A DNA stretch of 11,301 nt, taken from assembly GCA_030603035.1 (NCBI GenBank), contig JAUVYQ010000088.1, positions 1-11,301 on the forward strand, read 5' to 3'. The notes beneath the pieces were generated by a model, which made no database searches, had not been told where the DNA came from, and saw only the letters and a program-made list of their open reading frames with translations. The position numbers and the translations under genes are program-made. Source of the DNA: Phycisphaerae bacterium. Its GTDB lineage: Bacteria > Planctomycetota > Phycisphaerae > Sedimentisphaerales > SG8-4. Below are positions 1,687-5,238 of the stretch, piece after piece (position 1 is the first letter of the stretch; every line of letters starts with the position of its first letter).

Positions 1687-2688
1687 ATGGGTTGCAATCT
1701 GGCAATTGCGGGAGTAACGGGGGCGGTCGGTCAGGAGTTTCTGAAAATCCTGGAAGAGCGGGACTTTCCGTTCGATTCTCTGAAGGTGCTTGCGAGCAGC
1801 CGGTCGGCTGGTAAGAAAATCGAATTCAAAGGCAAAAAATATATTGTCGAAGAATTGACGAAAAAAAGTTTCGGCCGAATTGATATTGCGTTGTTCAGTG
1901 CCGGCGGAGCGCGAAGTAAGGAATTTGTGCCGGCTGCTGTGGAAGCGGGTGCGGTGGTGGTGGATAACTCATCGGCTTTTAGAATGAACCCGGATGTCCC
2001 GCTTGTCATTCCGGAGATAAATCCGCAGAAGATTGCGGAACACAACGGCATTATTGCGAATCCGAACTGCTCGACGATTATCGGCATCGTTCCGGTCTGG
2101 CCTCTGCACAAGGCGAATGCGGTCAAACGAATGGTGGTCAGCACGTACCAGGCGGCGAGCGGTGCGGGGATGAGAGCGATGTTCGAGCTGGAAAGTCAAA
2201 CGCGCGAGATTCTTGATGGGAAAGAGCCGACGTGCGAGGCGTTCCCGTATCAAATTGCGTTTAACTGCTTTAGCCATAACTCGGCACTCGATACTAACGG
2301 GTACAACCTGGAAGAGGTGAAAATGGTCGACGAGACGCGGAAGATTTTCGACTGTGCTGAGATTGCGATTACCTGCACGTGCATTCGGATACCGGTTTTG
2401 CGTGCGCACTGCGAGAGCATCAATCTTGAATTTGCGGACCCGATTACGCCCGAGCAGGTGCGGGACCTTTTGAGCACGGCGCCTGGGGTTTCAGTACTGG
2501 ACGACCGGGCAAACAACCGGTTCCCGATGCCGATTGACGCCAGCGGGAAAGATGATATTTTGGTTGGGCGCATCCGTCAGGATGGGTCGGTAGCTGAGAA
2601 CCGCGGCATCAATATCTGGGTTGCCGGCGACCAGCTGCGAAAAGGCGCAGCGCTAAATGCCGTGCAGATTGCGGAAAAGCTGCTGTAG
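1687..2688 (+). CDS. asd: Aspartate-semialdehyde dehydrogenase
   Basis: Catalyses NADPH-dependent reduction of aspartyl phosphate to aspartate semialdehyde, the branch-point step to lysine/diaminopimelate, threonine and methionine, in the cytoplasm. The 333 residues are normal length. The N-terminal dinucleotide-binding motif is AIAGVTGAVGQEF (residues 6-18), followed by SSRSAG (37-42), VVDNSSAFRM (91-100, with the phosphate-binding Arg99), IANPNCST (123-130, nucleophile Cys128), YQAASGAG (154-161, Gln155) and CIRIPVLRAH (232-241, Arg234 and general-base His241). The C-terminal GRIRQD...NIWVAGDQLRKGAALNAVQIAE is typical. GAGGAG at 1673-1678, 8 bases before the ATG, fixes the start. It is the first gene of a seven-gene plus-strand run. 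Only two bases separate its TAG from the heptamer array that precedes the S23 gene. Confidence 0.97.
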   Translation: MGCNLAIAGVTGAVGQEFLKILEERDFPFDSLKVLASSRSAGKKIEFKGKKYIVEELTKKSFGRIDIALFSAGGARSKEFVPAAVEAGAVVVDNSSAFRMNPDVPLVIPEINPQKIAEHNGIIANPNCSTIIGIVPVWPLHKANAVKRMVVSTYQAASGAGMRAMFELESQTREILDGKEPTCEAFPYQIAFNCFSHNSALDTNGYNLEEVKMVDETRKIFDCAEIAITCTCIRIPVLRAHCESINLEFADPITPEQVRDLLSTAPGVSVLDDRANNRFPMPIDASGKDDILVGRIRQDGSVAENRGINIWVAGDQLRKGAALNAVQIAEKLL

Positions 2689-2690
2689 CA

Positions 2691-2725
2691 CAGGAGTCAG
2701 GAGCCGGAATTCAGAAATCAGAATG
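2691..2725 (+). repeat. Heptamer array at the 5' edge of the S23 gene
   Basis: Five consecutive 7-base units, each beginning CAG or CGG (CAGGAGT, CAGGAGC, then three AT-richer variants such as CAGAAAT), fill the gap from just after the asd stop. The last unit, CAGAATG, supplies the ATG of the S23 gene. The units are reverse-complement relatives of the ATTCTGA units found at the other end of that gene. Confidence 0.75.
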
Positions 2726-3106
2726 AAAAAATCCGCAAAAACCTTTGAAGATTTGATTGTTTGGCAAAAGGCACATCAATTTGTTCTGGCGGTTTACAAA
2801 GCAACCTCATGTTTTCCCAAAAGTGAAGTTTACGGCTTAACATCTCAGTTCAGACGTGCCGCAGTGTCTGTACCTGCCAATATAGTAGAAGGTTTTAAGA
2901 GAACCCACAAAGCCGAGAAGGCCCGCTTTATGAATATAGCACAAGGTTCTTTGGAAGAATGCCGGTACTATCTTATTCTAACGGAGGATATAGGGTATTG
3001 TGAGTCCTCAAGTCTTTTGTCCAAACTTGAGGAAGTTAGCAAGTTACTTGAAGCGTATTCTCGCTCTATAATTGATTCTACTAAGCGATGTTATTCTGAA
3101 TTCTGA
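2723..3106 (+). CDS. S23-type four-helix-bundle protein
   Basis: 127 residues from the ATG at 2723. Family: four helix bundle / 23S rRNA intervening-sequence protein (TIGR02436, PF05635). Conserved blocks are FEDLIVWQKAHQF (8-20), FPKSEVYGLTSQFRRAAVSVPANIVEG (31-57), and GSLEECRYYLILTEDIGY (75-92) leading into a C-terminal helix rich in Leu, Glu and Ser. The family forms pentameric barrels in solved members and is related to the Avd accessory protein of diversity-generating retroelements. Its own cellular role is not established. An upstream in-frame ATG at 2657 lies inside asd and would add 22 residues coded by repeat, so I reject it. The ORF is bounded by inverted heptamer arrays that supply its start and stop codons, which suggests that it inserted as a unit between asd and truA. 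Confidence 0.93.
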   Translation: MKKSAKTFEDLIVWQKAHQFVLAVYKATSCFPKSEVYGLTSQFRRAAVSVPANIVEGFKRTHKAEKARFMNIAQGSLEECRYYLILTEDIGYCESSSLLSKLEEVSKLLEAYSRSIIDSTKRCYSEF

Positions 3107-3124: not shown

Positions 3125-4048
3125 ATGACGGTCCGCAATATAAAACTGACGGTTGTCTATGACGGCAGCGCATATCACGGCTGGCAAATTCAGCCGGGGC
3201 TAAGAACCATTCAGGGCGTGCTTACCGAGGCAATCCAAAACCTCATCGGCGGTGAAGTTAGAGTGTTCGGGGCGAGTAGAACCGATGCGGGGGTGAGCGC
3301 TCTGGGACAGGTTGTGCTTGTTCAAATCGATTCGGTCATACCGGTGGAAAATCTCGCCAGGGCAATTACGGACAGACTTCCGGCTGATATTGCAGTTGCC
3401 GAGGCGGTGGAGGTTCCGCAGGGCTTTGATTTGATAGGGGCGGTCAAAAGCAAATTGTACCGGTATACGATTTTTACGGGGCAGCTGCGGCCGGTCATGC
3501 AAATAAGACACTGTTGGCATCTGCCTGCCCCGTTAGAAATTCCACAAAAGGAGACCAAAGCCCAAAAAGGACGATTTCTAACGGGGCCTGCAAAACTTGA
3601 TGTCGCAGCTATGGCCGAGGCAGGAGCAATGCTGGTCGGCAAAAAAGATTTCAAGTCCTTTGCATCGGCTGCGGACCGACGGGAGAATTCTGTGCGGACA
3701 ATCTTTCGCTGCGATGTCAATTCGTCGTGCGTCCCTTCGGCTATGCTCAGGACAGGCGTGCGTGATGCGTCGTGCGAAAAAAAGACACAAAAATTTGCCA
3801 CAGGTATACACAACACGCAATACGCAGTACACAATACGCAATACGAAAATGATTGGGTATATGTTGATGTGGAAGGGGACGGCTTTCTGTATAATATGGT
3901 CAGGAATATCGTCGGCACTTTGGTCGAGGTCGGTGTCGGCAGAATGCCTCCAGAAAAAATAGCCGAAATTCTCGAAGCAAAAGACCGAACGGCAGCGGGG
4001 CCAATCGCGCCGGCTGCGGGATTGTGTTTGATGTGCGTTAAATATTGA
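3125..4048 (+). CDS. truA: tRNA pseudouridine synthase A (positions 38-40), enlarged by in-frame repeats
   Basis: Isomerises uridines 38-40 in the tRNA anticodon stem-loop. Conserved parts are IKLTVVYDGSAYHGWQ (6-21), GASRTDAGVSALGQV (49-63) with catalytic Asp54, KSKLYRYTIF (108-117), DFKSFASA (175-182), DGFLYNMVRNIVGTLVEVG (252-270) and AKDRTAAGPIAPAAGL (285-300). At 307 residues it exceeds the usual 245-270. The excess is two insertions coded by repeat DNA. Residues about 135-155 are a palindromic element. Residues about 200-242 are a second dispersed element followed by heptamers encoding a duplicated HNTQY. Both lie between conserved blocks, probably in surface loops, and the frame is kept, so the enzyme may still work. 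No clear ribosome site precedes the ATG, perhaps because the S23 unit displaced it. The stop overlaps the next gene. Confidence 0.95.
   Translation: MTVRNIKLTVVYDGSAYHGWQIQPGLRTIQGVLTEAIQNLIGGEVRVFGASRTDAGVSALGQVVLVQIDSVIPVENLARAITDRLPADIAVAEAVEVPQGFDLIGAVKSKLYRYTIFTGQLRPVMQIRHCWHLPAPLEIPQKETKAQKGRFLTGPAKLDVAAMAEAGAMLVGKKDFKSFASAADRRENSVRTIFRCDVNSSCVPSAMLRTGVRDASCEKKTQKFATGIHNTQYAVHNTQYENDWVYVDVEGDGFLYNMVRNIVGTLVEVGVGRMPPEKIAEILEAKDRTAAGPIAPAAGLCLMCVKY
3527..3587. repeat. 61-base palindromic element inside truA
   Basis: GCCCCGTTAGAAAT (3527-3540) is the exact reverse complement of ATTTCTAACGGGGC (3574-3587), a perfect 14-base inverted repeat around a 33-base A/G-rich centre. It codes in frame for roughly truA residues 135-155 (centre ..IPQKETKAQKG..), a stretch absent from normal TruA. 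It resembles in principle the Rickettsia palindromic elements that insert in coding genes. Confidence 0.85.
3723..3776. repeat. Dispersed repeat element inside truA, flanked by 9-base direct repeats
   Basis: The core at 3735-3756 begins CTTCGGCTATGC and ends TCAGGACAGG, a sequence type I remember as a frequent dispersed repeat in environmental genomes of this kind (not searched). It is bordered by CGTCGTGCG at 3723-3731 and again at 3768-3776. The right flank also reads as 7-base units (GTGCGTG, ATGCGTC, GTGCGAA) from 3758. It codes in frame for truA residues about 200-218. Confidence 0.65.
3808..3849 (+). repeat. In-frame heptamer array in truA (ACRCAAY units)
   Basis: Five tandem 7-base units of consensus ACRCAAY (ACACAAC, ACGCAAT, ACGCAGT, ACACAAT, ACGCAAT) plus a sixth degenerate unit. 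Three units make 21 bases, so the array codes for a 7-residue protein repeat (HNTQYAV, HNTQYEN) at truA residues about 228-242. Confidence 0.85.
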
Positions 4049-5238
4049 AAATCGTTCATATAATAACAAGATTGATTTTAGGCGGGGCGCAGGAAAATAC
4101 TCTTATAACCTGCAAACTGCTGGCAGAGCGAGGGCACGATGTTACGCTGGTTACCGGGCCGGCCATAGGCCCTGAAGGCGAACTGTTCAATCAGACAAAG
4201 AACCAAAAATATAATGTAATAGTCATACCCAAAATGATTCGTGCAATCTGCCCCTTATATGACACCATAACTTATTATCAAATCAAAAAACACCTTAAGC
4301 GTCTGCATCCTGACATCGTTCACACCCATTCAGCAAAGGCGGGAGTACTGGGAAGATTTGCTGCACACAGTCTCAGACACAAGACACAAGACGCAAGACA
4401 CAAGAGGCCAGCGATAGTGCATACTATACACGGATGGTCTTTCCATACGTATCAGAGTCAATGGCTGAATAAATTTTATATCGCCGTTGAAAAATCCGCT
4501 GCGAAACGAACGGATTTCTTTATCAGTGTTGCCGATGCGATGACCGCTCGGGCGAGAGCCGGGGGTATCGGTCGGCCTGAACAATTTGTTACCGCTTACT
4601 CGGCTATCGAGGAGGATGATTTTTTAGAGGCAATCCCGCAAGAGCGCAAAAAGGATTTTCGCCGAAGGTATGAAATCGGCGAAGATGCGATTGTGCTTAT
4701 CACCATTGCTCGGCTGTTTATGCTCAAGGGACATAAATACATTATCGAATCGGCTAAGCGGCTTTCGAAGCGATTTGAAAAGTGCGTTTGGCTGTTTGTC
4801 GGAGACGGGAATCTTGCCGAGCATTTCAAAGAACAGGTCCGGCAATTGGGGTTAGCTGAAAAAATCAGATTTACCGGTCTTTTGCCGCCGGGTCAAATCC
4901 CGCTTGCGATACAATCATCGGACATCCTCGTGCACTGCTCGCTTCGAGAAGGCCTTGCACGGGCGCTGCCACAGGCAATGCTGTGCGGCAAGCCGGCGGT
5001 GTCCTTCGATATCGACGGGGCAAGAGAAGTTGTAAATGAAAGCACAGGCCGGCTTGTTGAGCCGGAGAATATCGAACAGTTGACAAAGGCCTGCGCGGAA
5101 TTGATAGAGGATAAAGATTTAAGGGACAAACTCGGTCGAACCGGCCGAGAATCTGTGAAAGAAAAATTTGCACCAAAAACAATGGTCGACACGATTGAAT
5201 CAGTGTACAGAAAACTTACTATAAACAATAAACTATGA
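4045..5238 (+). CDS. GT4-family (GT-B fold) glycosyltransferase
   Basis: 397 residues. Probably transfers a sugar from a nucleotide donor to a lipid or polysaccharide acceptor at the inner membrane; the actual substrate cannot be read from sequence. The N-terminal acceptor domain starts KIVHIITRLILGGAQ (2-16) and contains DIVHTHSAKAGVLGRF (90-105) and IVHTIHGWSFH (124-134). The C-terminal donor domain shows IARLFMLKGH (221-230), WLFVGDGNL (249-257), FTGLLPPGQI and HCSLREGLARALPQAM (297-312). The EX7E donor motif reads Glu302...Gln310, a substitution common in this subgroup. Residues 111-120 (RHKTQDARHK) are coded by a heptamer repeat and look like an insertion. The start is a TTG that overlaps the truA TGA by 4 bases, implying translational coupling. 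Confidence 0.9.
   Translation: MKIVHIITRLILGGAQENTLITCKLLAERGHDVTLVTGPAIGPEGELFNQTKNQKYNVIVIPKMIRAICPLYDTITYYQIKKHLKRLHPDIVHTHSAKAGVLGRFAAHSLRHKTQDARHKRPAIVHTIHGWSFHTYQSQWLNKFYIAVEKSAAKRTDFFISVADAMTARARAGGIGRPEQFVTAYSAIEEDDFLEAIPQERKKDFRRRYEIGEDAIVLITIARLFMLKGHKYIIESAKRLSKRFEKCVWLFVGDGNLAEHFKEQVRQLGLAEKIRFTGLLPPGQIPLAIQSSDILVHCSLREGLARALPQAMLCGKPAVSFDIDGAREVVNESTGRLVEPENIEQLTKACAELIEDKDLRDKLGRTGRESVKEKFAPKTMVDTIESVYRKLTINNKL
4375..4402 (+). repeat. In-frame heptamer array in the glycosyltransferase gene
   Basis: Four tandem units AGACACA, AGACACA, AGACGCA, AGACACA, followed by a partial unit. Rotated, the unit is ACACAAG, the same type as the ACRCAAY array in truA about 530 bases upstream. 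The stretch codes for residues about 111-120, between the GRFAA helix and the IVHTIHG strand, where related enzymes normally have only a short linker. Confidence 0.8.

Follow-up and report, generated by a model that had tools for sequence, protein, structure and literature searches.

Palindromes that lie in frame within genes have been described chiefly from Rickettsia and Wolbachia, and REPs are sometimes found inside genes elsewhere, as far as the accessible parts of the reports go (PMC10969869, PMC3767692, PMC4853749, PMC3733652). According to the same partial sources, the Rickettsia and Wolbachia elements (RPE and WPE) are dispersed in frame among unrelated protein genes and their peptides occupy solvent-exposed places (PMC10969869, PMC3767692). 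TruB of R. conorii, named among the carriers in the available part of PMC3733652, is itself a tRNA pseudouridine synthase.

The locus analyzed here lies in a window (the whole stretch of DNA under analysis) of 11,301 nt, in which truA contains a palindrome at one site and heptamer arrays together with a 24-nt repeat at a second. In the best reading of these sequences, the palindrome represents one copy of a lineage-restricted mobile element family and would be translated with its host gene. We consider it probable (about 0.8) that the family is a MITE-like, protein-coding palindrome, similar to RPE but separate from it, that selection maintains in frame and that may be preadapted to translation, and that the arrays and the 24-mer are repeats residing in permissive loops. 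Searches of open-licence papers brought up no earlier description of the palindrome.

Results

The truA gene and its product

The truA gene for tRNA pseudouridine(38-40) synthase (3125–4048, plus strand) encodes 307 aa in an intact frame with inserts in two loops. The equivalog score (176.8 bits against TIGR00071, cut-off 142.85), the conserved blocks, and the fold all assign the product to TruA, and the blocks are intact and in frame, as the first-pass annotation had held. Its estimate of about 60 residues added by repeat elements also proved accurate: there are 61, split between the two sites, and the frame is unbroken.

The best relatives of the window are MAGs of Phycisphaerae, Sedimentisphaerales or Planctomycetota. 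The best 80 of the 559 stretches encoding a relative were taken as truA loci, and the window protein was aligned with 119 other listed proteins. The structural model based on alignment A1 reached a pLDDT of 48, and the A2 model was used instead. Low confidence in the latter was confined to the inserts, both of which appear as excursions from an intact predicted fold that agrees with 1dj0 (one protein modelled). Aligning the relatives and mapping the inserts on a structure, the check proposed in the first pass, placed both inserts in putative loops.

The palindrome at site 1 and its empty sites

The palindromic element (3528–3586, plus strand) is composed of a core (3529–3585) with the arms CCCGTTAGAAAT and ATTTCTAACGGG plus an outer C and G, and reads in frame as PLEIPQKETKAQKGRFLTG; the palindrome extends to 61 nt at 3527–3587. 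In the DNA, GCCTGC is followed by the 57 nt running from CCCGTTAGAAAT to ATTTCTAACGGG and by a second GCCTGC. Judged from this sequence and from the duplication register common to the whole family, CCTG within GCCTGC is the target duplication (left copy 3524–3527, right copy 3587–3590, both unstranded). The net gain of 63 nt equals a 59-nt element and the 4-bp duplication, i.e., 21 codons, and the extra stretch in TruA, PAPLEIPQKETKAQKGRFLTG, follows HCWHL. RNA of positions 3520–3600 folds at −29.5 kcal/mol (z −4.84), none of 200 shuffles being as stable. Rfam gave no matches at gathering scores.

Empty counterparts of the site were found among the relatives. Without the palindrome, site 1 reads CATCTGCCTGCTGAACTT in locus L003 and CATCTGGGGAGAGAACTT in L001; it is also palindrome-free, with substitutions, in L005, L008, L012, and L014. 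The palindrome was present in 22 of 195 TruA proteins (window counted), always at one codon, and the 173 proteins devoid of it include several of the closest relatives. Insert 1 resembles itself across the 22 carriers, some of them fairly divergent TruA proteins. A tree was built for 140 of these 195 proteins with gappy columns dropped; on it, 13 changes were needed to account for the presence of the insert versus a mean of 20.8 after shuffling, and the well-supported branches force at least four presence/absence changes. Between the window and L002, three of the 19 palindrome codons differ, all by replacements and none silently; all 19 third positions of the element are identical, compared with 67% of third positions in the whole alignment.

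A dispersed family of palindromes

The exact pattern, defined as two 12-base arms 20–50 apart, detected 98 copies in 11 of 16 genomes drawn from the 80 truA loci, and the reversed-pattern control none in all 16. Flanks were fetched for 97 copies, and the remaining one, in truA of L002, was read within that locus. The cores measured 51 (8 copies), 56 (2), 57 (28), 58 (4), 59 (4), 60 (34), 61 (7), 62 (1), 63 (3), 64 (1), 66 (4), and 74 nt (1), so that 51, 57, and 60 nt are the main classes and 77 of the 97 cores are multiples of three; the longest core found in the family had 105 nt.

The family-wide target-site duplication is visible in the flanks: left and right sides match well in a single register, that of 6 bases (73% versus 14–28% in registers 3–5 and 7–10), with 77–88% identity at its four inner positions. 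Pyrimidines occupy position −5 in 93 of the 97 copies, and purines position −2 in 94. An outer C (81/97) and an outer G (83/97) adjoin the 12-base arms, and the further outer G and C beside the element occur in about half of the copies (48/97 and 52/97). Since C and G hardly vary at the two ends, we read the element as the core plus two bases, flanked by a 4-bp YNNR duplication. The net gain for the main classes is then 57, 63 or 66 nt.

Mobility is suggested by near-identical copies (0.97) at unrelated loci of the same genome, for example L191/L188a in G004 as well as L149/L163 and L157/L167 in G011. For insertions shared between genomes, identity of the element was about equal to or above that of the flanks in most pairs. 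Searching with a single arm gave 87 matches in G001 and 90 in G011 (0 and 1 with the reversed control). These two genomes hold 13 longer members of the family, 11 of which are multiples of three and two of which have 100 nt. Neither a transposase nor an autonomous copy was found, and G001 and G011 contained no facing pair of solitary arms when exact ends were sought. Among seven solitary-arm loci that were read, six proved to be short copies (37–96 nt) with a mismatched partner arm. On contig C104 of G001 (25592–28441), a solitary arm faces a complete copy 2.85 kb away, possibly a longer element.

The distribution appears restricted. In a sample of 298 genomes from the class, the exact element occurred in seven, five of them already known carriers, and in an overlapping sample of 246 from the phylum it occurred in two, one of them already known. 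Viral contigs gave no matches to a pattern with 13-base arms.

Copies inside genes

By our own classification, 44 of the 97 copies are genic and in frame. The class was defined by a spanning stop-to-stop frame together with a codon score for which 283 long ORFs served as the training set; because the open spanning frame was itself a criterion, the in-frame status is partly given by construction. The genic copies comprise 21 internal ones (at least 50 codons upstream and at least 20 downstream), 12 in prepilin-type leaders, one C-terminal copy, and 10 near the start (fewer than 50 codons upstream), some of which may precede the true gene start.

Thirty ORFs (29 of the 44 genic copies and one antisense frame of L189) were scanned against Pfam; 24 had a family match at some point of the ORF and six did not. 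One domain match spans the insert in six copies (L110, L115, L123, L124, L148, and L179). The palindrome lies between domains of Dxs (L150) and inside the radical SAM domain of a lipoyl ligase-synthase fusion (LipA, L123), and it is carried by an AIR-synthase-like protein (L115), an APRT-like phosphoribosyltransferase (L172), a MiaB-like protein (L153), and a pyridine nucleotide oxidoreductase (L179).

In the prepilin leaders (L107, L118, L119, L161, L174, L180, L181, L190, L192, L193, L196, and L197), the Gly of the new G|FTLVEL-type cleavage motif comes from the element end, as in GFT[PLEIKVSNRASKRFLTG]FTLVELLVVIAIIA. The eight copies with a 51-nt core all belong to this leader group, and PF07963 was found in three of four prepilin ORFs scanned. 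For the longer members, a duplicated start codon or the position ahead of a twin-arginine motif is a frequent location (MN[PVRN...ISNG]MNRRDFFK); members of 96–99 nt near a start codon or before twin-arginine signals were seen at L200, L202, L206, L207, and L211.

Two further observations concern individual loci. In the UvrD/PD-(D/E)XK gene of L148, the palindrome and a heptamer array share a frame, and the peptide PVPSEVEG encoded there appears to resemble the 24-mer family read in reverse. At L139, L145, L146, L147, L183, and L188, coding frames of 309–501 codons enter the closed frame of the palindrome and stop inside it.

Length and orientation

The length bias extends beyond the genic class: 33 of the 53 other cores are multiples of three (P = 1.5e-5 against an expectation of 1/3), as are 23 of 41 after 12 near-identical copies were dropped (P = 0.002), both P values being optimistic as the copies, which include orthologues and subfamilies, are not independent. 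The arms leave two of three frames open on either strand. The sense strand is the purine-rich one in 41 of the 44 genic copies (19/21 internal, 10/10 N-terminal, and 11/12 prepilin copies). Strand asymmetry is alike in the other and the genic copies (0.67 vs. 0.65), and it is therefore orientation rather than asymmetry that sets the genic copies apart.

None of the 53 other copies was flanked on each side by a coding-scored frame of at least 60 codons in the same strand, that is, none split a gene out of frame. Coding-scored ORFs cover about 70% of the fetched flank DNA and 45% of the copies are genic; genic copies are thus fewer than expected from random insertion. The first-pass annotation had offered two ideas, that selection keeps only frame-preserving insertions or that the elements are built to be read through. 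The absence of gene-splitting copies among the 53 and the low genic share speak for the former, as do, partly by construction, the open frames of the genic copies, and the codon-multiple length outside the genic class, the open arms, and the sense-strand bias lend support to the latter.

Heptamer arrays and the 24-mer at site 2

Heptanucleotide tandem repeats are known from cyanobacteria as STRR. Repeats of the heptanucleotide TAACTGA in Beggiatoaceae are described in the accessible part of PMC4679880. The heptamer arrays of these genomes are similar in being built of 7-base units and widely scattered, and differ in that their units vary from gene to gene and many of them lie within open frames. 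Among tandem repeats in the 953 kb examined, a period of 7 was the most frequent (97 arrays), 47 of these arrays falling in open frames by a loose criterion.

The extra stretch at site 2 of TruA amounts to about 40 residues after FRCDV. Array 1 (unit TCGTGCG, 3723–3776, plus strand) is split by the 24-nt dispersed element CCTTCGGCTATGCTCAGGACAGGC (3734–3757, plus strand), which reads as part of PSAMLRTG and is absent from L001, where the counterpart TCGTCGTGCGTCGTGCGTGATGCGTCGTGCG is unbroken; TRF detects array 1 in L001 (4536–4565) and misses the split one in the window. Array 2 (unit ATACGCA, 3806–3845, plus strand; TRF score 52) reads IHNTQYAVHNTQYE and is also present in L001 and L003. The first-pass annotation had counted three repeat elements in truA, and the palindrome, the heptamer array, and the 24-nt dispersed element all stand. 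The 9-base direct repeats said to border the dispersed element do not: since the L001 stretch is uninterrupted, the 9-mers at 3723–3731 and 3768–3776 are units of array 1 and not a target duplication. RNA of positions 3715–3860 folds no better than its shuffles (z 0.70).

A 23-base pattern of the 24-mer with up to two mismatches occurs 36 times in G011 and eight times in G001 (reversed control 0). The 24-mer apparently recurs in truA relatives at other positions and frames, as PFGFAQDR in P0023 and P0024 (protein only) and as SFGSTQDK in L004 (DNA seen). Many relatives show the basic form of site 2, in which a spacer separates a TCGTGCG array from an ATACGCA array that follows it; some have another repeat there, reading MDSCFRRND or VIPAQAGI, and others have neither array (FRCDVTCEDDWVY). 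In the glycosyltransferase gene 3′ of truA, a single loop carries heptamer arrays, of several different units, in the window as well as in nine further genomes. The window copy of this gene (4045–5238) contains an in-frame AGACACA array at 4375–4405, and the same loop holds arrays with other units or larger inserts in L019, L021, L026, and L038.

The region upstream of truA

Between asd and truA, the window has a gene (2657–3106) for a 23S rRNA intervening-sequence/four-helix-bundle protein (PF05635), flanked by imperfect inverted repeats (2692–2716/3094–3118). The asd–truA gap in L001 is about 12 bases. Relatives of the PF05635 gene occur in 12 of the best 80 truA loci; one of them (91% identity) lies directly upstream of truA in L008.

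Discussion

Like RPE and WPE, as these are described in the accessible parts of PMC10969869 and PMC3767692, the planctomycete palindrome is dispersed, with in-frame copies in protein genes of unrelated kinds (44 of 97 by our own classification, 21 internal). It differs from RPE in its core of 51–105 nt, set against a unit of about 100–150 bp in the portions available, in its host phylum, Planctomycetota, in its clear 4-bp target duplication and inverted ends, and in a codon-multiple length that is also seen outside genes. It shares with MITEs the terminal inverted repeats (the 12-base exact arms were the search pattern), the target-site duplication, a size with no room for a transposase, and the many dispersed copies. 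Unlike MITEs, it mostly falls below the 70–300 bp range given in the accessible part of PMC3733652, its parent insertion sequence was not found, and its compatibility with reading frames is unusual. With REPs, again as presented in the available part of PMC3733652, it has in common short dispersed palindromes, some of them in genes. In contrast to REPs, it has a target duplication, and the REP tags GTAG or CGTC were absent from the ends and flanks of the 97 copies. We read the family as probably separate from RPE.

We propose that a mobile element, served by a putative transposase acting in trans, inserts with a 4-bp target duplication of the form pyrimidine-N-N-purine. Element and duplication together usually make whole codons, and whichever strand is read, the ends are free of stops in two frames out of three; given this length and these ends, insertion in a permissive place would add about 20 mostly polar residues. 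Selection would then remove insertions that break the frame or hit the protein core. In the predicted fold of TruA, peptide 1 sits in the loop between a segment ending at residue 132 and the helix 160–168, and a second loop, the turn of a β-hairpin (strands 190–200/244–252), has independently gathered the heptamer arrays and the 24-nt repeat. The inserts would be translated, and the codon-multiple length may stem from ancestry through coding copies. That the family is adapted to life inside proteins, as suggested by the whole-codon gain, the two open frames, the polar sense-strand peptide, and the subfamilies in dispensable or removed protein parts, is a tentative idea to which we give somewhat less than an even chance.

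One competitor, to which we would give even odds, is the host filter alone: an ordinary palindrome inserts anywhere, selection against harmful insertions makes all of the pattern (reading frame, loop positions, and purine-rich sense strand), and founder chance accounts for the 57/60-nt length. A genic share of 44 in 97 copies, below what about 70% coding content predicts, fits with it, and so do the heptamer arrays and the 24-mer, which have no palindromic ends and still keep the frame in the aligned TruA relatives. It accounts poorly for multiples of three prevailing outside the genic class, also after thinning, and recurring in the separate length classes of 51, 57, 60, 63, 66, 75, 81, 96, 99, and 105 nt. 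The view that the inserts are native functional loops of TruA, selected for a role such as tRNA contact or regulation, draws on the similarity of insert 1 in its 22 carriers, common to fairly divergent proteins. We rejected it as very improbable, as the insert is missing from most relatives (173 of 195) and the site is empty in several close ones; a native domain common to all relatives, which the first pass had named as the outcome speaking against its claim, is thereby contradicted. In addition, members of this sequence family are scattered among genes unrelated to truA and to each other, and the inserts were modelled at low confidence, like disordered loops. Inserts that are skipped or excised are known, namely mobile bypassing elements and rRNA intervening sequences. 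A hairpin that ribosomes bypass or that is excised from the transcript would agree with the stable fold and the location within housekeeping genes, yet open, codon-multiple, and sense-strand-biased genic copies (the open frame being a selection criterion) would be needless in that case, and we regard this option as highly unlikely. Least probable of all is that the truA of the window is a pseudogene with a working copy elsewhere. G001 does possess, besides its own truA, a TruA-like piece of 36 residues at a contig end, but in the other four of the five relatives searched (G002, G005, G011, and G013) TruA matches fell in one gene per genome, those of the insert-bearing G002 being confined to the two halves of a single gene with the same insert. 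Moreover, frame and motifs of the window truA are intact, and the 21 other insert-bearing TruA proteins are listed at 100% query coverage.

The history of the palindrome at truA is a separate matter. Its patchy occurrence reflects either an old insertion that was precisely lost several times or spreading from lineage to lineage, and lateral spread or targeted re-insertion at this site may have taken place. Loss and regain through homing-like targeting or inter-lineage recombination, instead of inheritance with losses, seems doubtful to us. By DNA identity over seven loci, the window is nearest to L001 and L005, and L002 to L012 and L014, all insert-free; both duplication copies change together (GCCTGC in the window vs. 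GCCCGC in L002), the third positions of the element are identical in these two, and the carrier P0013 is nested among non-carriers in the tree. On the other hand, the protein tree puts the carrier P0002 nearest to the window and pairs P0010 with the carrier P0014 (weak internal support), and direct repeats flanking a hairpin would favor precise loss. We do not press the lateral reading, because at most of the other shared insertions the element, too, is about as conserved as its flanks or more so.

With its many copies and clear target duplications, this probably separate family of uncultured environmental Planctomycetota provides natural pairs of occupied and empty sites in housekeeping enzymes. 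With such pairs at hand, the distinction between elements that merely survive selection and elements that evolved for translation becomes testable.
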